In this document: positions 2,989 through 30,504 of the stretch, one piece after another | Position numbering within the stretch: position 1 is the stretch's first letter | Layout of the letters: the number at the start of each line of letters is the position of its first letter | Virus record (IMG/VR): IMGVR_UViG_3300023242_000418 | Location: 1 to 31,353 of that record | Strand: one strand, 5' to 3' | From: a virus | Length of the DNA: 31,353 bases | The notes under the pieces: generated by a model | The model's input: only the letters and a program-made list of their open reading frames with translations | The model's database searches: none | What the model was told of the DNA's origin: nothing | Made by a program: the position numbers and the translations under genes

Positions 2989-4143
2989 TTAAACTAAAAT
3001 GTATATTACTGTTTTATTAAAACCACTAATCATTGCCCTTAAACCATTTGCGGCTGAAACCATGTTTGAATTATTGTTGTTTACTGTTGCAAATGTACCG
3101 CTATTTTCGTACGTTGTTGTTCTTCCTATTGGGCTTGAAGATGCCCCTAATCCTATTGAATCGCCATTAGGCAACCTAATACCATCTAATGAATTTATAG
3201 TAGGAACTGATGTTGAAGATGTTCTATTCCATGCAAAAGAAAAATGCCCACTCGTTGAACTACTTTGGAATGCTCTCAATAAAATAACTTTAGTGTTTAA
3301 CGGTACAAAGGTTAAAACTGAATTTGTTAAGGCTGTAACTCCCCTTTCTGTTATTTGACGTTGTACTTGCGTTGGATTAGCTTGGTAAGCTGATAATGCT
3401 GTATCACTATTCCAAACTGCTAGTTTTGCTGTTGAAGATGTAAATACGGCATCTGATGCGGTGTCTGATGCTGCAACTGCATTCATAGCTGTACTTGAAG
3501 CTGCTACTGCATCCATAGCCGTACTTGATGCTGCTACTGTCGTCATAGCTGTACTTGAAGCTGCTACCGCATCCATAGCTGTACTTGATGCTGCTACTGC
3601 AGTCATAGCTACACTTGATGCTGCTACTGCATTCATAGCTGTGCTTGATGCTATTACTGCATTCATTGCTGTGCTTGATGCTGCTACTGCATTCATAGCT
3701 GTGCTTGATGCTGCTACTGCATTCATAGCTGTGCTTGATGCTGCTACTGCATTCATAGCCGTACTTGATGCTATTACTGCAGTCATAGCTGTACTTGATG
3801 CTGCAACTGCATTCATAGCTGTACTTGATGCTGCTACTGCATTCATAACAACACTAGACAAAGAAAATGCTTCCATAGCAACACTAGAATCAACTACTGC
3901 ATCCATAGCAGTTCTTGAAAAAACAATTGCTGCTGCCCCGTTTGGAGCTGAAATTAACTGCGTAAACTTAGCAGCTTTTCCCTCGCCAGAAATCCACGTT
4001 GCGAAAGATGCAGGAGTTACGTCATTAGCCAAAAGCACTTGTAACGCTTCTGCATCTCCGTTGAGCAGTACAAAGTGGTCAAGTAGTGTTTGTGCTACTT
4101 CCTCACTACCGCCACTTGGGTATAATTCTGATAAATTAATCAT
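2989..4143 (-). CDS. Tail fibre with decapeptide repeats
   Basis: This 384-aa protein has three parts. Residues 1-75 form a head that is probably an attachment domain. Residues 76-255 hold 18 tandem decapeptides of the form SSTAMNAVAA. Residues 256-384 form a Ser/Thr/Gly/Asn-rich, probably beta, tip that may bind the host. The very regular 10-residue period predicts an elongated trimeric shaft or solenoid. It lies between the larger fibre (4159-5994) and the chaperone-like gene. In the fibre repeats the DNA is also repeated (30-bp period), which produces a long antisense open frame that is not a gene. Receptor and fold are unknown. Confidence 0.7.
   Translation of the reverse strand: MINLSELYPSGGSEEVAQTLLDHFVLLNGDAEALQVLLANDVTPASFATWISGEGKAAKFTQLISAPNGAAAIVFSRTAMDAVVDSSVAMEAFSLSSVVMNAVAASSTAMNAVAASSTAMTAVIASSTAMNAVAASSTAMNAVAASSTAMNAVAASSTAMNAVIASSTAMNAVAASSVAMTAVAASSTAMDAVAASSTAMTTVAASSTAMDAVAASSTAMNAVAASDTASDAVFTSSTAKLAVWNSDTALSAYQANPTQVQRQITERGVTALTNSVLTFVPLNTKVILLRAFQSSSTSGHFSFAWNRTSSTSVPTINSLDGIRLPNGDSIGLGASSSPIGRTTTYENSGTFATVNNNNSNMVSAANGLRAMISGFNKTVIYILV
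3379..3918 (-). repeat. 18 tandem 30-bp repeats inside a tail fibre gene
   Basis: These encode decapeptides SSTAMNAVAA with variation at positions 3, 6 and 9. The central units are nearly identical in DNA, so copy number could change by recombination or slippage in whole 10-residue steps without breaking the frame. Confidence 0.9.
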
Positions 4144-4158
4144 ATTGTTATTATTATA

Positions 4159-5994
4159 TTATTGTCCAATTATTGTCCAGCCTAAAATATCGCCTGTAAA
4201 TACCAATCTAAAACCTGCGTATGCTGTGTCTATTGTCAAGTTTTCTTCTAAGCCTACTATCTTTTTGCCGTTTCTTGCTATTATAGGGCTTGGCGTTGCA
4301 CTTAAATTACTAACTTCTACCCAATCGCCTGCCGTTGGTGCAATAGGCAGCGTTAATGTTACGTTGCTAGTAAATACATAAGCTTCTTTTACCGTTGCAT
4401 TGGTAGCGGTGGAAATTACGTTTACAGGATAGTTATAAGTTAAATTTTGCTTTAAATCTAAAGCGGTTTGAGTTGCTGTTGAAACAGGCTTATTTGCATC
4501 ACTTGTATTATCAACATTCTCTAATCCTAAACTTGATTTTGTTTGATTGGTAACGCTTTCAAGTCTGCTAATTTCAGTATCTAGTATTAAACTTTTATCT
4601 GTAACTTTATCAACTTTCCCGCTTATATCTTGATTGGTAACACTTGCAAGCCTTGAAATTTCGCTGTCTAATATTAAGGACTTGTCGGCAACTTTGTCAA
4701 CCTTAACGCTTATGTCTTGGTCGCCTGTATTTAAACCGCTTGTGTTGGCTAATTTAACTATCTCGGCTGCGTTTACAAGTCTTTCTCCAGCAACTATGTC
4801 AACTTTTAAATTTAAAGCGTCTTGGGTTGCCGTTGAAACTATTTTATCTGCATCGCTTGTGTTTTCAACATTGCCTAAACCTACCATTGTTTTAGTAAGT
4901 CCGCTTACTGTTCCTGTAAATGTAGGGCTTGCTATCGGTGCTTTTAAATCTAAATTAATGTTTGTGGCAAATGGAGTTAAATCTTGGTCGCCTGTGTTAA
5001 CTCCGCTTGTATTAGCTAGCCTTGTTATGGCTGAATCTTCAATTAAAGAACTTCCTGTTACCTTATCTACTTTAACGCTTAAATCTTGGTCGCCTGTGTT
5101 AACTCCGCTGGTATTAGCTATAACATCGGCTTGCGCTGTGGTTAGGCTTATCTTATCGTTGTTAGCTAAAATGTCATTAGCTTGTTGGGTTGTAATTCCT
5201 ACCTTTAAAGTGTTAACGCCAATAGCATCCGATTGCTCGATGCTAATTCCTACTTTGTCGCTATTAAATAAAATAGCATCCGCTTGCTCGTTTGATATTC
5301 CAATCTTATCAGTATTAGCTAAAATTGCATCGGCTTGGATTGTTGTTATTCCTACCTTAGAATTATTGGATAAAATATCACTTGTTTGTTGTGCGCTTAT
5401 TCCAACTTTTGCGGTGTTGGCAATAATTGCATCAGATTGTATTGTTGTTATTCCTGTCTTTAAAGTATTGGCAATTATCGCATCGGATTGCGTATTTGTT
5501 ATTCCTACCTTTGCATTATTCGTTACAATATTTGCAGCTTGTCCAGTTGTAATACCAGTCTTTAAATTATTGTTTTGAATATCACTAGCTTGCTCTGTAC
5601 TAATTCCTACCTTTAAAGTATTAGCTGCAATTTCATTAACTTGGTTTGTGGTAATTCCTACTTTGGAAGTATTGGCAATAATAGCGTTTGACTGATTAGA
5701 AGTTATGCCAATTTTTAGCGTATTTAAAGCTATCGCATTATTTTGATTAGTTTGTTCTAAGTCTAGTAAATCAATAGCATCTGCATTTAATAAAATACCA
5801 GACACGTCTTGATTAGTAACGCTTGCAAGCCTTGCAATTTCACTATCTAAAATTAGACTTTTGGCAGTAACCTTATCAACTTTATCGGTGTAAACTTCTA
5901 AAAAATTACTGTTTACCTTAATGAAAGCATTTCTTAGCTTATCGCCTGTTCCATCATTCGGGGTTGTTCCAGTATTTATAATTTCGTTTGCCAT
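4159..5994 (-). CDS. Long tail fibre protein with 17-residue repeats
   Basis: This 611-aa protein starts with a widely shared fibre-attachment motif, GTTPNDGTGDKLRNAF (9-24), seen in tail/baseplate-linked fibres. Residues about 94-282 are eleven or so 17-residue units of the type KVGITTxQADAIxANT. After that come mixed modules: repeated NTSGVNTGDQDLS, KSLILDSEIxRLxSVTNQ, and GLxNVxNTSDAxKxVSTATQ, a classic phage fibre shaft repeat. The C-terminal ~100 residues look beta-rich (LTLPIAPTAGDWVEVSNLS). It is probably the main receptor-binding fibre. It has its own start 60 bp after the connector gene. Confidence 0.82.
   Translation of the reverse strand: MANEIINTGTTPNDGTGDKLRNAFIKVNSNFLEVYTDKVDKVTAKSLILDSEIARLASVTNQDVSGILLNADAIDLLDLEQTNQNNAIALNTLKIGITSNQSNAIIANTSKVGITTNQVNEIAANTLKVGISTEQASDIQNNNLKTGITTGQAANIVTNNAKVGITNTQSDAIIANTLKTGITTIQSDAIIANTAKVGISAQQTSDILSNNSKVGITTIQADAILANTDKIGISNEQADAILFNSDKVGISIEQSDAIGVNTLKVGITTQQANDILANNDKISLTTAQADVIANTSGVNTGDQDLSVKVDKVTGSSLIEDSAITRLANTSGVNTGDQDLTPFATNINLDLKAPIASPTFTGTVSGLTKTMVGLGNVENTSDADKIVSTATQDALNLKVDIVAGERLVNAAEIVKLANTSGLNTGDQDISVKVDKVADKSLILDSEISRLASVTNQDISGKVDKVTDKSLILDTEISRLESVTNQTKSSLGLENVDNTSDANKPVSTATQTALDLKQNLTYNYPVNVISTATNATVKEAYVFTSNVTLTLPIAPTAGDWVEVSNLSATPSPIIARNGKKIVGLEENLTIDTAYAGFRLVFTGDILGWTIIGQ
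5149..5715 (-). repeat. Eleven degenerate 51-bp repeats (17-aa units) in a tail fibre
   Basis: The units share K(V/I/T)GI(T/S)xxQxxxIxxNx. They are conserved in protein more than in DNA, so the periodicity is under structural selection and is not a recent duplication. Confidence 0.85.
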
Positions 5995-6592: not shown

Positions 6593-8224
6593 TTACATAT
6601 CGTGTGGCGCAATATAGCCACGTTTGTCCTCTGGTGTTGGTAATATTTCGCCAGCTTTTCTAGCTTGTGCTGCTGTAAATCTTTCAGCTAGTGGGTTGTT
6701 TACATCTGCTTTTAATAAATAAGTTTCACGAACCCAAAAATGCTTACAAGTTCCAAACCTAAAACTAGCAGAAAGTTTGCCCCCACCTTTCCACGCCCAA
6801 ATATCATAAGGAGCGTTCGGACTTGGACTCATTCCAAAACCAGGATTTACATTTTTCATAGACATCATATCTATATCTTCTTTTCTGTAAAGCTTATTTT
6901 TAGACATCATTAATTTGCAAAAACTTCTTTCTGGATTTTGGTTTCCAGAATACCTATAACGGCTCTTAAATAGTTCCCCGTCTATTTCAGATTTTGAATT
7001 AGGTCTTGCAGTTCCTGCACTTGCTAAAGATACCTTACCAATTATTTGTAAGCGATATTCCTCGTTCAATGAGGTTATAAGGTTTTGCGTTTCATCTTCA
7101 TTCTCATAGTCCACTGGTGCGCTTTCTAATAGCTCCCATTGCGCTAAATCTATATCTTCGCCATAAGCATCTAAATCAATTTTAAATTCTTTTGAAAGTG
7201 CAAAATTTTCTTCTGTGGCTTTTTGCCTTAACGGAATAAAATCTAAATTACTAATCCCTTTTATTTCTTCTATTGCGTCAATTAAAAGCTCCTGCAAGGG
7301 CTGTATTACGTTAATGTAGGTTTCATTAAAAGCTACTTCTATCTCGTCCGCTGTTGAGCTGAATCCACTCGCTTTGTTTATTCCTAAAATTGCACCGCTT
7401 ACCACTTTATGGGCTACGCAAATTTTGTCTTGCGCTTCTTGGGTTAAAAATGTATATTGTTCGTGTGCGCTTGAAACCTCTAAGGCTTCAACCGTTGTCG
7501 CTTCTTCTTTGTTGTTATTAAAGGAAAGTAAAAATTTACCAGCGTTTGTGCTACCTGTTAATTCGTTTCTTATTTTTTGCGAATGCTTTTTAATATCTTC
7601 TTCGCTTTCTGGTTTTCCACCGTTTACATTTATAACGTGTCCGAATGATAAGCCATTTTTTACGTGGTTTACATAGTAGTTAGCAAGTTCACTTTCCAAT
7701 TCGCAATAAGGTAAAGCAGAAATATAACTAGGATTGTTAAAATAGAATTGCCCGATCTGGTAACTACTAACAATATAAATTTGACTTTCTGAACCTTGAC
7801 CATATCCAAAAGCTTTAATTTCTTTTGCTGGATATTTACGTAAATCCATCCAGTCAAAACTATAAAAGTAACTTTCTATTTTTCCGTCCTTTGCCTTTGC
7901 TGGTAATATTTTAGATTTATCAGCGTGCTTTAAATTACCGTCTTTTAATATTTCAATTGATGCTTCGCCAAACATAACTAAGTCCGCACAAATTTTACTC
8001 AAATCTTTTTTGCTTATAAAATCCTGTTGTATATTTAAACCTTTGCCAAAAGTAAAACGGCTGTAAGAATTTATAATTGCGCTATTTGTAGCCGAACCGT
8101 AATAAGAATTTATAATGTCCTTATACATCTGATTATCTTCGCCATTCATAACCCAATCTTTACTCATGGATTCCTTTATGACTGGACGTACATAGTCGGC
8201 TGCAAGTTTTATTAATTCTATCAT
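6593..8224 (-). CDS. Portal protein with extra C-terminal domain
   Basis: This 543-aa protein is mostly a portal-type fold. It has an N-terminal region with SYSRFTFGKGL (53-63), a membrane-free alpha/beta core, a long segment AHEQYTFLTQEAQDKI (about 253-268), the clip/stem-like AFNETYINVIQPLQELL (299-315), and a helical crown. Residues about 430-543 form an added domain with RYRYSGNQNPERSFC, a K-rich SKNKLYRKEDI and CKHFWVRETYL. I recall similar segments in head proteins of Bacteroidota phages. The start overlaps the preceding gene (ATGA 8221-8224). It would form the dodecameric ring through which TerL packs DNA. Confidence 0.75.
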   Translation of the reverse strand: MIELIKLAADYVRPVIKESMSKDWVMNGEDNQMYKDIINSYYGSATNSAIINSYSRFTFGKGLNIQQDFISKKDLSKICADLVMFGEASIEILKDGNLKHADKSKILPAKAKDGKIESYFYSFDWMDLRKYPAKEIKAFGYGQGSESQIYIVSSYQIGQFYFNNPSYISALPYCELESELANYYVNHVKNGLSFGHVINVNGGKPESEEDIKKHSQKIRNELTGSTNAGKFLLSFNNNKEEATTVEALEVSSAHEQYTFLTQEAQDKICVAHKVVSGAILGINKASGFSSTADEIEVAFNETYINVIQPLQELLIDAIEEIKGISNLDFIPLRQKATEENFALSKEFKIDLDAYGEDIDLAQWELLESAPVDYENEDETQNLITSLNEEYRLQIIGKVSLASAGTARPNSKSEIDGELFKSRYRYSGNQNPERSFCKLMMSKNKLYRKEDIDMMSMKNVNPGFGMSPSPNAPYDIWAWKGGGKLSASFRFGTCKHFWVRETYLLKADVNNPLAERFTAAQARKAGEILPTPEDKRGYIAPHDM

Positions 8225-9198: not shown

Positions 9199-9227
9199 AA
9201 AAAAAGGCACTACTTAAAGTGCCCTTT
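9199..9227 (-). terminator. Intrinsic terminator after the major capsid gene
   Basis: On the minus strand GGCACT and AGTGCC (9218-9223 / 9206-9211) with flanking AAA/TTT pairs form a hairpin, followed by about seven Ts. It lies in the 51-bp gap between the capsid gene and the tail-tube-like gene. No room remains for a typical promoter before the next start, so read-through must feed the next gene. Confidence 0.8.
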
Positions 9228-10148: not shown

Positions 10149-11177
10149 TTAATTTGCGTTTTGCATATGCATTAATAATTTCTCTTTTAGATTTTTAGGC
10201 TCTTTAACCTCGTGGTTTGGCTTTGGTGCTGTTAATTGAACAACGGCTGGTTTAACCACATCTTTTTTCATTTCAGCTTTAAAAGTTGCTAATTGCTTAG
10301 ATACTTCCTTTGCCATTTCTACTGAATAGCTAGATAGTAATTCCATAACTTTTGCTAATACTTCGTCTGCATTAGACAAAGCTACTTCTGCTTCGGCTTC
10401 TGCTACTTCTTTAACCTCGGCAACTTTACCGTCTGCGATTGTAACTTCGATTTTTTCAAAGCTATAAGTTTCATTTGGTAACGCTTGGGTCATTTCTGCA
10501 TCCGTAAACATTGCAGTTCCCTCTTCAATTTGACCCTCGAAATATACTTCCGTTCCATCGGTTGTTATTTCGCTTGCCATTTTTACGTTAAGGGACTTAA
10601 AGCCATCCTTAATCGCTCCTAAAATAGTTTCAATATTCATATTTGTATTTAATTTAAAATTCTCGTCTATTTCAAACGCTCCATCTATTGAAACGCCTTT
10701 TATTTCTCCGCTTTTTATCTTCGCTAATACCTCGTCATCATCTACTCTAAAGATTGTAAACCAAGTTCCAATAGGTTGCTTAAATCCTTTTATTAAGCTC
10801 TTATCGTGTAGCTCATCTTCTTTAATCCAACTTTCAACAAACGTTACTCCGTTTAGTTTTACGTTTATGTCGTGCTCTAAATTTGAGTTATTTTGAAACC
10901 CATTCTTTTGAAAATTTTGTTGGGCAGATTGTATTACCTCTTTGCCGAAAACGATGTTAAAAGCAACTCCGTCCTTTGACATTCTTAAAACCTTTTGGTC
11001 TGGAATAAGTACAGGGGTCATAAACAGACGCTTTTTCTCGTCAACTACTTTTAACTGGACATCATAATCTTTATTCATTTGCACAAAAAACGCTTCAATG
11101 GCTGGGTCGGCAACTAAAGATATGCCGTAAACTCCCCTCGTTTGGTCTGGATTAAATTGGATTAGGTATGTTTCCAT
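10149..11177 (-). CDS. Prohead serine protease (XkdF-type) with scaffold-like tail
   Basis: From the ATG at 11177 this is 342 aa. It begins METYLIQF and has GISLVADPAIEAFFV (18-32), a form seen in XkdF-type putative proteases. The candidate catalytic residues are H102 in LEHD and S163 in IKGVSIDGAF. The aligned stretch ESWIKEDELHDKSLIKG and GTWFTIFRVDDDEV lies between. Residues 170-342 are acidic and helical with a Lys-rich end (PNHEVKEPKNLKEKLL), as for an internal scaffold released by cleavage. An ATG at 11222 would add 15 residues but abuts the terminator T-tract, so I prefer the internal start. Confidence 0.72.
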   Translation of the reverse strand: METYLIQFNPDQTRGVYGISLVADPAIEAFFVQMNKDYDVQLKVVDEKKRLFMTPVLIPDQKVLRMSKDGVAFNIVFGKEVIQSAQQNFQKNGFQNNSNLEHDINVKLNGVTFVESWIKEDELHDKSLIKGFKQPIGTWFTIFRVDDDEVLAKIKSGEIKGVSIDGAFEIDENFKLNTNMNIETILGAIKDGFKSLNVKMASEITTDGTEVYFEGQIEEGTAMFTDAEMTQALPNETYSFEKIEVTIADGKVAEVKEVAEAEAEVALSNADEVLAKVMELLSSYSVEMAKEVSKQLATFKAEMKKDVVKPAVVQLTAPKPNHEVKEPKNLKEKLLMHMQNAN

Positions 11178-11222: not shown

Positions 11223-11252
11223 AAAAAAACCCGCACTTGTTAGGTGCGGGTT
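11223..11252 (-). terminator. Strong intrinsic terminator before the head genes
   Basis: AACCCGCAC and GTGCGGGTT (11228-11236 / 11244-11252) form a perfect 9-bp GC-rich stem with a 7-nt loop. On the minus strand it is followed by seven Ts (11229-11223). It is the strongest terminator in the window and separates the 63-aa gene from the protease gene. Confidence 0.93.
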
Positions 11253-11273: not shown

Positions 11274-11465
11274 CTACTTTTCTAAGAAATAAATTTTAGC
11301 TTTATTACCTAGCATATCATTGTATTTTAATTCAATGTTAATTGAGCTTAAAATCTTTCCTGCGGTGTTCGCTAGTTCTTTACCGTCTTTTAATTCCATT
11401 TGTTTAGCTTTCATTTTTTCGTAGTTGTCAACTAAACTGTTTCGCAAATCTGTAATGTTTCTCAT
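11274..11465 (-). CDS. Small conserved phage protein of unknown function
   Basis: This 63-aa helical protein has the pattern LRNSLVDNYEKM, GKELANTAGKILSSINIELKYN (split by short gaps) and a final KIYFLEK. I recall closely similar short proteins in Bacteroidota phages paired with zinc-ribbon proteins such as its upstream neighbour; the function is unknown. Its start overlaps that neighbour by 4 bp (11462-11465), and a strong terminator follows. The amphipathic helices suggest a DNA- or protein-binding regulator, which is inference only. Confidence 0.65.
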   Translation of the reverse strand: MRNITDLRNSLVDNYEKMKAKQMELKDGKELANTAGKILSSINIELKYNDMLGNKAKIYFLEK

Positions 11466-12178
11466 AATCTTTTTGTTTTGATTAATATTAATTTTAATTC
11501 AATTATTTCAGGGGTCATTTGTTCTTTGCTAAATCCCTGTTTCTCTAGCAATATTTTTAAATACTGACCGTTTAAGTTTTCTTTTATTTCTTGAAAATAT
11601 TTTTTGTAATATTTAGCTATTTTAATTTTATTTTTTTCCTTATATTTTTTATTATGTTTAGCTATTTTAATTTTATTTTCTTGGTAATATTTTTTTCTGT
11701 TTTCATCTAATTTAATTTTATTTTCTTGAACATATTTTCTTTGATATTTAAGTAATTTAATTTTATTTTCTTGAACATATTTTTTTCTGTTTTCATCTAA
11801 TTTAATTTTATTTTCTTGGCGATATTTTCTTTGATATTTAAGTAATTTAATTTTATTTTCTTGAACATATTTTTTTCTGTTTTCATCTAATTTAATTTTA
11901 TTTTCTTGAACATATTTTCTTTGATATTTAAGTAATTTAATTTTATTTTCTTGAACATATTTTCTTTGATATTTAAGTAATTTAATTTTATTTTCTTGGT
12001 AATATTTTTTATCTCTTTCAGCTAGTCTAATTTTATTTTCTTGTTGATATTTTTTTGCGTATTCAGCATTACACTTTTTGCATTTTGCAGCAAATCCAAA
12101 TTTGCCAAGTGGTCTAATACAAAAATTATCCGTTGTAGCGGCTAATTCTTTATGACATCCAGTACAAGTTTTTACCAT
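11462..12178 (-). CDS. Zinc-ribbon protein with 15-residue lysine-rich repeats
   Basis: This 238-aa protein starts with a zinc ribbon (C5xxC8 ... C33xxC36). Residues about 41-205 are ten or so 15-residue units KYVQENKIKLLKYQR / KYVQENKIKLDENRK. The C-terminus (GFSKEQMTPEIIELKLILI) is distinct. Such ribbons plus charged repeats precede the nuclease part in many phage HNH-type proteins, but no HNH catalytic motif is visible here, so I do not call a nuclease. The repeats should form a long basic helix suited to nucleic acid binding. A structured RNA leader lies directly upstream. It sits between tape measure and head genes. Confidence 0.7.
   Translation of the reverse strand: MVKTCTGCHKELAATTDNFCIRPLGKFGFAAKCKKCNAEYAKKYQQENKIRLAERDKKYYQENKIKLLKYQRKYVQENKIKLLKYQRKYVQENKIKLDENRKKYVQENKIKLLKYQRKYRQENKIKLDENRKKYVQENKIKLLKYQRKYVQENKIKLDENRKKYYQENKIKIAKHNKKYKEKNKIKIAKYYKKYFQEIKENLNGQYLKILLEKQGFSKEQMTPEIIELKLILIKTKRL
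11564..12058 (-). repeat. About ten 45-bp tandem repeats in the zinc-ribbon gene
   Basis: The 45-bp units encode KYxQENKIKxxxxxx. Two sub-types (LLKYQR and DENRK endings) alternate in the centre and are almost identical in DNA, which points to recent unit duplication. Copy number is likely to vary between related phages. Confidence 0.9.
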
Positions 12179-12197
12179 AACATATAAAATAAAAAAT

Positions 12198-12282
12198 GCC
12201 TTTCAAAATCTACAAAGGGTCTGATGCTTTGTGTCATTTAAAAGGCTATTATTTTTAGTTACCAATGGTTTCAGACCGTAAC
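12198..12282 (-). promoter_or_regulatory. Structured RNA leader A: two hairpins with complementary loops
   Basis: Read on the minus strand, hairpin 1 is GTTAC (12282-12278), loop starting GGTCTGA (12277-12271), GTAAC (12262-12258). Hairpin 2 has an outer stem GCCTTT/AAAGGC (12246-12241 / 12203-12198) and an inner stem ACAAAG/CTTTGT (12232-12227 / 12217-12212). Its 9-nt loop contains TCAGACC (12224-12218), the exact complement of GGTCTGA. Hairpin 2 ends 19 nt before the ATG of the 238-aa gene and is followed by six Ts, so it may also act as an attenuator. Leader B (25900-25988) has the same plan with different sequence. Confidence 0.65.
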
Positions 12283-12288
12283 GTTTTA

Positions 12289-12296
12289 CAAATATA
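12289..12296 (-). promoter_or_regulatory. Promoter -7 element (TATATTTG) for the head block
   Basis: The minus strand reads TATATTTG, matching the Bacteroidota housekeeping -7 consensus TAnnTTTG. It lies just after the tape measure stop and upstream of RNA leader A, so a transcript would begin near 12283 and contain the whole leader. No exact TTTG -33 element is seen. Confidence 0.55.
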
Positions 12297-24364: not shown

Positions 24365-25228
24365 TTAAATATTAAATTTTTGATTACTATGATTAGCTAA
24401 ATAAGGCAATCCCTCTTTATTTATGTTAAATTTAAAATCACTAAAAGAACGACCACGGGAATATTTATGTTTAACAATAATATCACAATCCTTTTCTTCC
24501 TCTACTTCCTTTTCTAAAAAAGTAACTGTTTCTGCTTTCTTTAAAATATAACTTCCTAAATGCCCAGTCGGCTTATCTACTCCGATTAATTTGTGAATAA
24601 TTGTATGTAAATGTACACCATAATCGTCAGTCCATTTTAAAACTTTGTTCGCAATATTTGCGCTCATCAAAATATCATTTGTATTTTCCACTAAATCCGC
24701 AATTCCATCAATGGATATAAACTTTATTTTCCCCTTGTACTTTGGGTCATCGAGCAAAGCATCTACAAACATAACTCTTTCGTCTGGTGTCTTAGAACGC
24801 ATTGCAAAAGGTAAGTAGTTCACATACTTGCTTCCGGTCATAAGCTGTACTCGTCTAAATGCGTGTTGAGCGTAATACTTTCCCTGTTCGGTATCTATGT
24901 CAACTATGAAATAATCGTTATCCCTAGCACTTTTCATATTAGGAAAATAGTTAATAGCCTTACCGCCAATATACGAGGCTATCAAAGCAGATTTATAAAA
25001 TGTTTTTTTAGTCTTTGATGGTGCAACCGTTGCACTAAATTCTCCGTAAGTGTGTGCTGGTAAATCGTATTCTTTGCCGTTAAAATCATATGTGCCAATA
25101 AATAAAGCGGCTGGAGGTCGGTGTAGTATCACATCTAAATCTACAAAGCAATCTTCAAACATTTTTTTGTAGTCGAAAGGCTTATCTTCATTTTTGGTAA
25201 TCTTGTCTAAGTTTAGTTTTTCTATCAT
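24365..25228 (-). CDS. RecA-fold replication ATPase (RepA/DnaB-like)
   Basis: The 287-aa protein has a RecA-type ATPase plan. The P-loop region is APSKTKKTF (69-77), where the two glycines of GxxxxGKT are replaced but K75-T76 remain. Next come DYFIVDIDTEQG (about 104-115) and a Walker-B-like KIKFISIDGIADL (167-179). A later H-rich loop (VHLHTIIHK) may be a sensor. Similar phage proteins act in replication as helicases or loaders. The start overlaps the 219-aa replication protein gene by 4 bp (ATGA). It is shorter than DnaB and lacks its N-terminal domain. I am confident in the fold and less so in the reaction. Confidence 0.68.
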   Translation of the reverse strand: MIEKLNLDKITKNEDKPFDYKKMFEDCFVDLDVILHRPPAALFIGTYDFNGKEYDLPAHTYGEFSATVAPSKTKKTFYKSALIASYIGGKAINYFPNMKSARDNDYFIVDIDTEQGKYYAQHAFRRVQLMTGSKYVNYLPFAMRSKTPDERVMFVDALLDDPKYKGKIKFISIDGIADLVENTNDILMSANIANKVLKWTDDYGVHLHTIIHKLIGVDKPTGHLGSYILKKAETVTFLEKEVEEEKDCDIIVKHKYSRGRSFSDFKFNINKEGLPYLANHSNQKFNI

Positions 25229-25884
25229 AACCCCCTTGAATTTATTTTTTTAATACTTCCATAAAGCTTGTAATCCTTTGCAGTTGATGCGCTAACATAC
25301 TTGTCTATACTTTCTAAAAAGTGCTTTGGTCTTAGAAACATAGCAGATATATTTTTTACTTCTTGCTTAAATAAACAAACCATAGCATCTTTTAACTCCC
25401 TGTCGGTGTAGTTTTTTAAAGCATCTGAAAAAGAAATACGTTCTTGAAAATCTAGTTTTTTAATATTGGTAGGTTGCTTCATAAATTCAGTTCTGCATTT
25501 TCCCCAATCTTCTAAAAAATTATTTTCATTATAAATAACACTTGTATTATTTACACTATCACTAACACTAACACTATCAGCTTTTTTGGGTTCTTGAATT
25601 AAGGCTTGGGTTTTTTGGGTTTCTTTTTTTAACGGTCTGCCCCCTTTTTTACCGTTGGCTTTTTGTTTATCAACATAGCTTTCGTACTTTTTTAAATCCC
25701 TCTTTAAAGTCTGCTTAATTGAAATAAAACAAAGTTTAGTGTACTTATCTTCACTTACAGGATTTAAATCATTAACATATCTAAAAAGGTGCTTTACAAG
25801 CCTGCCAGCTTCTTCATCTTCTAATTCTTCAAAGACATCTATCCAATCACAATAAGCAAGAAATGATTTTTTATTTTCTGCCAT
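25225..25884 (-). CDS. Replication initiation-like protein (DUF6291 type)
   Basis: The 219-aa protein begins MAENKKSFLAYCDWIDVFEE and includes LEDEEAGRLVKHLFRYVND (21-39), then KQTLKRDLKKYESYVDKQKA and KGGRPLKK. This N-terminal block matches DUF6291 proteins found in phage replication modules. The middle is low-complexity Ser/Val-rich (SVSVSDSV near 103-110). The C-terminal LRPKHFLESIDKY looks DnaD-like. It is paired with the RecA-fold ATPase, as initiator and helicase/loader genes often are. The ATG lies 15 nt after the structured RNA leader B, so its translation is a likely target of that element. Confidence 0.68.
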   Translation of the reverse strand: MAENKKSFLAYCDWIDVFEELEDEEAGRLVKHLFRYVNDLNPVSEDKYTKLCFISIKQTLKRDLKKYESYVDKQKANGKKGGRPLKKETQKTQALIQEPKKADSVSVSDSVNNTSVIYNENNFLEDWGKCRTEFMKQPTNIKKLDFQERISFSDALKNYTDRELKDAMVCLFKQEVKNISAMFLRPKHFLESIDKYVSASTAKDYKLYGSIKKINSRGL

Positions 25885-25899
25885 AATATTTTAAAACGT

Positions 25900-25988
25900 A
25901 AACCCCTATAAATCCTTTAGCGTTCGACTTCTAAATTCATTATAGGGGTTTTATTAATTCCTTTGTTACTATAATGTCGAACGGTAAC
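25900..25988 (-). promoter_or_regulatory. Structured RNA leader B: second copy of the loop-loop element
   Basis: Read on the minus strand, hairpin 1 is GTTAC (25988-25984), CGTTCGAC (25983-25976), six bases, GTAAC (25969-25965). Hairpin 2 has a perfect 12-bp outer stem (25951-25940 / 25911-25900), an inner stem TTTAG/CTAAA (25935-25931 / 25920-25916) and a 10-nt loop with GTCGAACG (25928-25921). That loop sequence is complementary to CGTTCGAC. Hairpin 2 ends 15 nt before the ATG of the DUF6291-like gene. Stem GTTAC/GTAAC and the layout match leader A. Confidence 0.7.
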
Positions 25989-25993
25989 TTTCA

Positions 25994-26001
25994 CAAAAAT
26001 A
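25994..26001 (-). promoter_or_regulatory. Promoter (-7 TATTTTTG, -33 TTTG)
   Basis: The minus strand carries TATTTTTG at 26001-25994 and TTTG at 26021-26018, 16 bases apart, matching the Bacteroidota TTTG/TAnnTTTG promoter. Transcription would start near 25988, exactly at the 5' end of RNA leader B. Confidence 0.65.
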
Positions 26002-26043: not shown

Positions 26044-26871
26044 TTAAGACCATAAAGTTTGTCCTGTTTTTTCTATTTCAGATTTAGCATATCCAAACTC
26101 TTTTATATCTTTTTTTATTTGCTTCTCCTGAATTAACCATTCTTTTGCTTTTGTGTAAAATTCTTTTTTAATTTCAAAACCGAAGCCCTTTCTATCTAAT
26201 CTTTCTGCTGCTATTAAAGTAGATCCACTTCCAGCCACAGGGTCAATAACTACATCCCCTTTATCCGTAAATATTTCAATAAGTCTTTTTAATAATTCAA
26301 CTGGTTTTTGTGTAGGATGTATTTTTTCGCTTTGATTATCTCTCGGCCAATCCATGCAATTAAAAATCATTTTCCCATTATTTCTAAACTTTGGGAGCTT
26401 ATCCCTGTAGAGAATTAAGCCATATTCACAGTTCCCTACTACCTTCATATTTGCTTTTAAAACCTGTGCGGAAAAGTTTTTTCTAAACACTAAATTTATG
26501 TAATTATTAAGACCATATTTTTTAGCTAATTCTATTAAATACATTTGCTGGTCAAATGCACAAAATATAATCATGCATGGAGCTGCTGCTTTTTGTCTTG
26601 CAACGCCTTCTATTTTTACTGTTTTTGGTTCTGACTTTAACATAGTACTGCAAAAGTGCATAAACTCTGCTGGCCTAAAATCTTCATCAGTATCAAAAAA
26701 GCTTTTTCCAGCAAGTTTACTTTCTCCCTGTTTATTATCACCTCCTTCATACCACGCTGGATTGGATGCGTAAGCATTGTTGCCTAGATTGTAAGGAATA
26801 TCAGCGATAATTAATTGTGCTTTAGGAACTGCATAGCTTTTGTAATTTTGGAAATGGTCTCTATAAATCAT
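26044..26871 (-). CDS. DNA N6-adenine/N4-cytosine methyltransferase
   Basis: The 275-aa protein carries the amino-methyltransferase motifs. The catalytic motif IV is DIPYNLG (24-30), a variant of DPPY. Motif X-like HPTQKPVELLKRLI (185-198) precedes motif I DPVAGSGSTLIAAE (210-223), which binds SAM. The order IV then I fits the beta class. NPAWYEGGDNK is also typical of phage members. It may protect phage DNA from host restriction or affect packaging and regulation. No restriction partner is seen next to it. Its end precedes promoter and RNA leader B; its start overlaps the DnaA-like gene by 11 bp. Confidence 0.88.
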   Translation of the reverse strand: MIYRDHFQNYKSYAVPKAQLIIADIPYNLGNNAYASNPAWYEGGDNKQGESKLAGKSFFDTDEDFRPAEFMHFCSTMLKSEPKTVKIEGVARQKAAAPCMIIFCAFDQQMYLIELAKKYGLNNYINLVFRKNFSAQVLKANMKVVGNCEYGLILYRDKLPKFRNNGKMIFNCMDWPRDNQSEKIHPTQKPVELLKRLIEIFTDKGDVVIDPVAGSGSTLIAAERLDRKGFGFEIKKEFYTKAKEWLIQEKQIKKDIKEFGYAKSEIEKTGQTLWS

Positions 26872-30312: not shown

Positions 30313-30504
30313 ATGTTGGGAAAAAATATAAAGATACAACGTATAACTAAAGGTTATAGTCAGGGGGAGTTTAGCAAGTTGATAAAAATAACTCAGCCTT
30401 ATTTAAGCCAGATTGAAAGAGGTCATAAAACTCCAACAATAAAACTTATTGAAGTTATTTCAAATGCTTTGGAAGTGCCTATTTCGGATTTATTTAAAAT
30501 ATAA
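30313..30504 (+). CDS. Xre-family HTH transcriptional regulator (putative repressor)
   Basis: The 63-aa protein is one complete Xre/Cro-CI HTH domain: MLGKNIKIQRITKGYSQGEF, then SKLIKITQPYLSQIERGHKT and PTIKLIEVISNALEVPISDL. It is the only plus-strand gene within the phage interval and diverges from the early operon, the usual place for a lysogeny repressor. It lacks a C-terminal dimerisation or cleavage domain, so it may bind as a simple dimer. The TAA stop lies in ATATAAC, just before the first right-flank attC-like arm. The role is inferred from family and divergent position. Confidence 0.72.
   Translation: MLGKNIKIQRITKGYSQGEFSKLIKITQPYLSQIERGHKTPTIKLIEVISNALEVPISDLFKI

Follow-up and report, generated by a model that had tools for sequence, protein, structure and literature searches.

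Two short stretches of the 31,353-nt viral sequence analysed here (the window) were predicted to share one RNA plan, in which two hairpins carry loops complementary to each other, one stretch standing before a replication gene and the other before the head genes. Is this a real RNA structure, how widely does it occur, and what might it do for the genes behind it? The control of middle and late genes in Bacteroidota phages is poorly understood, and we found no study of it.

Architecture of the two leaders

Leader B (25988-25900, minus strand, as are all features of both leaders) is a unit of about 90 nt made of two hairpins with complementary loops. Hairpin 1 (25965-25988) reads GTTAC-CGTTCGACATTATA-GTAAC with a 14-nt loop, and is supported by its sequence, by folding and by covariation in 45 sequences; the kissing strand in its loop, CGTTCGAC (25976-25983), is the exact complement of GTCGAACG (25921-25928) in the second loop. 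After a 13-nt A-rich spacer, visible in the sequence (25952-25964), hairpin 2 (25900-25951) combines a 12-bp outer stem (AAACCCCTATAA/TTATAGGGGTTT), a 4x4 internal loop (UGAA/GGAU at 25939-25936 and 25915-25912) and a 5-bp inner stem (TTTAG/CTAAA) that encloses the apical loop AAGTCGAACG, the whole running AAACCCCTATAA-UGAA-TTTAG-AA-GTCGAACG-CTAAA-GGAU-TTATAGGGGTTT. The minimum free energy fold, computed without pseudoknots, consists of both hairpins (-22.7 kcal/mol, z = -2.4). Hairpin 2 ends 15 nt before the ATG (25884) of a gene encoding a 219-aa DUF6291-type replication protein (25225-25884), which also shows a weak likeness to phage primosomal proteins. The original prediction had described the GTTAC/GTAAC stem, the complementary loops, the 12-bp and 5-bp stems and the distance to the ATG in just this way, but it had overlooked a promoter that places the start at hairpin 1 and the U-tract that follows hairpin 2. 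The promoter is marked by the -7 element TATTTTTG (25994-26001), a match to TAnnTTTG five bases before hairpin 1, so that transcription is predicted to start around 25988, the first base of that hairpin. The T-rich tract (25888-25899) is interrupted here and long in most relatives. Upstream, a DNA methyltransferase gene (26044-26871, minus) lies between a DnaA-C-terminal-like gene and leader B; record L002 is without the methyltransferase gene, and its leader directly follows the DnaA-like gene.

Leader A (12282-12198) follows the same plan in different letters. Its -7 element TATATTTG (12289-12296) matches the promoter, its hairpin 1 (12258-12282) has the GTTAC/GTAAC stem and the kissing strand GGTCTGA (12277-12271), and its hairpin 2 (12198-12246) is built from a 10-bp outer stem, a UGAC/AGAU internal loop and a 6-bp inner stem, with the kissing strand TCAGACC at 12224-12218 and the U-tract ATTTTTTATTTT on its 3' side (12186-12197). 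One RNA plan is thus present twice, as predicted. The loop pairing of 8 nt claimed for both copies is found in leader B, whereas leader A pairs over 7 contiguous nucleotides (GGTCTGA/TCAGACC), and the loop-1 sequences, said to differ at most positions, differ at about half of 8. Compensatory changes between the copies do exist; the hairpin 1 stem, however, is identical in A and B, and consequently shows no covariation within the window.

The gene headed by leader A (11462-12178, minus) encodes an HNH-endonuclease-like N-terminus followed by coiled repeats, with the protease and major capsid genes downstream. The coiled part derives from at least 11 tandem repeats of 45 nt (11483-12157) encoding the charged repeat KKYxQENKIKL; tandem repeats with units of 30 nt (3366-3965) and of 51 nt (5143-5675) occur in other genes of the window.

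Distribution of the leader

We identified 53 distinct relatives of the leader in viral contigs and sequenced phages by pattern scans of IMG/VR, run with hairpin 1 first and then with the core of hairpin 2 alone, together with a structural descriptor. The expectation that related genomes hold further copies is therefore borne out. Among sequenced phages the members are Tenacibaculum JQ, the Flavobacterium phages 11b and tooticki6-1, and Olleya Harreka_1. Reading of sequences together with a promoter-anchored scan extended the set to Polaribacter P12002L, Cellulophaga phi10:1 and a second copy in tooticki6-1. By eye, elemoA is clear, while hairpin 1 of phi13:2 is unclear. In the promoter-anchored scan of eight phage genomes, where the highest shuffled or reversed control scored 27.1, JQ, the second tooticki6-1 copy, leader B, 11b, phi10:1 and Harreka_1 exceeded the controls, as did one AT-rich phi10:1 site without clear meaning. 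The scores of leader A, of P12002L and of the first copy in tooticki6-1 fell inside the control range, and these copies rest on the covariance model, their location and inspection by eye.

Records with the proteins most similar to the 219-aa gene product have the leader as well; one of these, L003 (53% protein identity), shows compensatory changes in the loops and the inner stem. In record L006, leader A is retained after the tape-measure gene with a different gene now downstream, which shows that the gene following the leader is exchangeable. The newcomer (L006:3355-4308), which encodes 141 aa of unknown function, lies between the unchanged leader and the HNH-like gene. DNA similarity of the leader among phage records gave chance matches only. 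A covariance-model search of the whole window returned only leaders A and B as strong matches, in concordance with the earlier impression that there is no third copy.

The assumption of a prophage setting, on the other hand, is unproven. No copy was found by model and pattern search in 395 sampled Bacteroidota genomes, which is weak evidence of absence since the model scored only 10 candidates per genome and sensitivity was low; a strict pattern search of 84,980 species genomes gave four matches, none of them with the kissing fold. The opposite strand of the window (30313-30504, plus) holds a small gene of the XRE-like helix-turn-helix kind, a hint of a temperate past, yet we found no bacterial genome bearing the leader.

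Covariation and tests against chance

We aligned 45 sequences with a covariance model, because MAFFT misaligned the 15-nt loops, and left the loop-loop helix out of that model. Paired cells amount to 99.1% in hairpin 1, 96.6% in the loop-loop helix, 94.6% in the outer stem and 99.4% in the inner stem, and seven of the eight loop-loop pairs show two-sided changes. The structural descriptor yielded 33 different kissing sequences, whose duplex energy averages -11.3 kcal/mol. G.U pairs are far commoner among members than A.C (52 against 6), which indicates selection on the sense-strand RNA.

Palindromes are common in AT-rich phage DNA, and inverted repeats arising by chance or acting at the DNA level, with no role as RNA, would be one account of the two copies. 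The relatives refute it, and we give it a negligible probability: 280 two-sided changes were observed in the alignment against 68 in shuffles, and sliding the partner of the loop-loop helix lowers pairing from 96.6% to 35-44%. In an independent selection, based on the hairpin 2 core and an upstream TAnnTTTG and leaving hairpin 1 and the loops unconstrained, 82% of sequences complement their own loop over at least 7 nt, compared to 5% with swapped partners; the excess of G.U over A.C speaks against this account as well. The leader fold is confirmed as real, with covariation that spans all four helices including the loop-loop helix.

Genes behind the leader

Genes in the first two positions behind the leader encode, among others, replication starters of unrelated kinds (DUF6291 proteins, DnaD-like helicase loaders, O-like initiators, primosomal proteins, primase/helicases) or else HNH, NUMOD4 or GIY-YIG endonucleases. 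As these first genes are unrelated, the leader is a general operon leader and not a device for autoregulating one particular gene. In the complete phages that we read, a copy heads the replication operon, and the replication context proposed for leader B is general among relatives.

Because the leader almost always adjoins replication genes, one could regard it as a primer or origin transcript whose kissing loops act as in the copy control of ColE1 or R1. We judge this very improbable: second copies head the head genes in the window and homing endonucleases in L188, L200 and tooticki6-1, the pairing occurs in cis within one RNA, and in a permissive-threshold Rfam scan of leaders A and B, which returned nothing, the CopA model reached 13.8 bits against a cut-off of 60.

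Two or three copies per record are found in the window, L123, L188, L200 and tooticki6-1. It had been suggested that one signal coordinates both copies. In the multi-copy records examined, however, loops pair over 7-10 nt with their own partner and over 2-4 nt across copies, so that coordination through the loops is not supported. A signal common to the copies would have to recognise the fold they share, the internal-loop motif or the promoter, and not the loop sequence. Second copies stand directly before HNH/NUMOD4 homing-endonuclease-like genes at L188:3457, L200:5126 and 2676, and L208:11595, and belong to the AGUA/GAA or UGAN/UGAN subtype of the internal loop; the leader may travel with such genes, or they may insert behind it.

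A candidate control element of transcription

Across members the leader comprises two hairpins in about 80-95 nt. A promoter of the Bacteroidota type, TAnnTTTG, precedes hairpin 1 by 4-6 nt in most copies, with similar placement in nearly all relatives, and transcription in F. johnsoniae starts 4-5 nt after the -7 element (PMC6847099); the RNA should therefore begin with hairpin 1 at +1. In loop 1 of most members the pairing strand is preceded by 0-1 nt and followed by 5-7 nt, and in loop 2 no more than 1-2 nt in total stay unpaired, so that hairpin 1, the loop-loop helix and the inner stem of hairpin 2 could stack end to end. The spacer between the hairpins is 52% A. At least 6 of the 8 bases after hairpin 2 are T in 47 of the 53 members, with T making up 70% of the following 10 nt, so hairpin 2 with its U-tract looks like an intrinsic terminator, leader B being among the weaker copies. 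An ATG within the conserved TATAATGAA was considered as the start of a leader peptide and rejected, as several members (L020, L021, L079, 11b, Harreka_1) lack it or have it in another register.

Our data show the fold with its sense-strand covariation, the position of the promoter, the terminator-like end and the genes that are headed. The leader stands before the DNA-replication operon in numerous phages of Flavobacterium-like hosts, and so is probably an on/off element timing the expression of phage genes. The reading we prefer, to which we give an even chance, is that of a cis-acting, promoter-proximal RNA that would control transcription elongation of the operon it heads, as an attenuator or antiterminator that is put-like in function. 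Together, four features favour an element acting on the elongating polymerase: the leader sits at the start site, it is independent of particular genes, it ends like a terminator and its tertiary contact is tightly maintained. RNA polymerase would start at the first base of hairpin 1, which would fold at once and whose loop would capture that of hairpin 2 as the latter emerges. The resulting stack would run from the hairpin 1 stem through a loop-loop helix of 7-8 bp, the inner stem of hairpin 2 and an internal loop of sheared G.A pairs to the outer stem. Hairpin 2 and the U-tract would form a built-in intrinsic terminator or pause, and the locked fold, by itself or together with a factor from phage or host, would decide whether the polymerase passes, the folded state presumably leading to read-through. 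The leader would in this manner gate the replication operon and, in this phage, the head operon too.

The same decision could perhaps extend to later terminators, for which the operon of leader A offers a candidate. An intrinsic terminator inside it (11228-11252, minus; 9-bp stem with 6 GC, U7) abuts the ATG of the protease gene (11222) and leaves no room for a promoter between them; with so strong a terminator, the downstream late genes need read-through or an internal promoter. A second strong hairpin with a U-run lies directly after the major capsid gene (9202-9227, minus); such terminators also occur in phage 11b, behind the capsid gene (11143-11168), and in phage JQ, just before terL (6607-6626). 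Three findings temper the elongation reading. Few strong internal terminators occur in other complete phages, which counts against it, and the U-tract is short or interrupted in leader B, L003, L020 and L033, so strong termination cannot be universal. The four conserved helices of the 45-sequence alignment are all compatible with each other, and among them no mutually exclusive helix, the classic mark of an attenuator, was seen.

The main rival to elongation control is protection of the mRNA at its 5' end, in which a blunt 5'-terminal helix would block processing and nucleases and hairpin 2 would keep the start region open. Hairpin 1 at the predicted +1 leaves no unpaired 5' end, in most copies an A/T-rich stretch of 10-47 nt separates the leader from the start codon, and the leader is not gene-specific, all of which would suit a stabiliser and translation spacer. 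A plain hairpin would suffice for this purpose, however, and there would be no explanation for the strict maintenance of the loop-loop helix, for the conservation of the G.A internal loop or for the U-tract, which leads us to consider this role rather unlikely.

The internal loop bears on a further alternative. It reads UGAA/GGAU in most members, partly since one scan required this form, UGAN/UGAN in JQ, L172, L200 and tooticki6-1, and AGUA/GAA, a second form, in Harreka_1, 11b, L123, L188 and L200. In L020 it is retained with its strands swapped (GGAU/UGAA), suggesting a three-dimensional motif with tandem G.A pairs. UGAA/GGAU and AGUA/GAA are typical non-canonical RNA motifs and the fold is conserved though the sequence varies, as would be expected if the fold were only a recognition shape, bound by a phage or host protein that acts on translation or timing. 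No partner gene was identified, though, and 10 nt or more usually separate the end of hairpin 2 from the start codon, which stays uncovered; we regard this explanation as improbable.

We rate the kissing-hairpin leader as a new RNA family among phage leader RNAs, to be added to annotation. That phages infecting Flavobacterium, Tenacibaculum, Olleya, Polaribacter and Cellulophaga share a strongly covarying RNA at the start site of the replication operon points to one step of control common to them, and RNA-based elongation control outside lambdoid phages becomes directly testable in a laboratory host, F. johnsoniae.

Comparison with known systems

None of the 4227 families of Rfam 15 scored above its gathering cut-off in 16 sources, and a literature search, with most subscription journals outside its reach, returned no published description of a kissing-hairpin leader. 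EAR (epsC) RNA and LoaP-type leaders are structured leader RNAs that act on long operons. The kissing-hairpin leader is unlike them in size, architecture and host, and has no Rfam match; a pseudoknot has been mentioned for the epsC RNA (PMC2864571). With the kissing antisense systems CopA/CopT and RNAI/RNAII the leader shares a loop-loop complement of about 7-10 nt, but both of its loops lie in one RNA, and no antisense transcript is needed.

Leader attenuators likewise place a terminator-like hairpin and a U-tract between the promoter and the first gene, an arrangement present in those same 47 of 53 members and weaker in leader B. They differ in that no conserved antiterminator alternative is seen in our leader; instead, the apical loop of the terminator is locked to the upstream hairpin.

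The putL RNA of phage HK022 consists of two hairpins, sits at the transcription start and prevents termination, and putR lies about 270 nt downstream of the start (PMC9378689). The position at the start site is thus a likeness to putL that is not required of putR. Further likenesses are two stem-loops with non-canonical pairs, a comparable size (about 70-75 nt in put, about 80-95 nt in the leader), two copies per phage heading operons, which holds for some leader records, and the lack of a single downstream gene. On the other hand, the loop-loop helix of the leader is absent from the put descriptions (PMC9378689), put has a stem I triplex and specific bulges and is described without a terminator-like U-tract, and the leader is distinct in host phylum, promoter and sequence. 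Antitermination or anti-pausing by put works through the zinc-binding domain of the beta' subunit; the put-like activity of the leader is putative. The leader may well work like a put RNA or an attenuator, and we claim membership in neither. In the strictest put-like version, which is possible though on the doubtful side, the nascent kissing RNA would itself bind the host polymerase, which would then ignore both hairpin 2 and later terminators. There is a real chance of a new class of antitermination RNA: if this version is true, the leader would be a processive antiterminator RNA built independently of put, outside the lambdoid phages.
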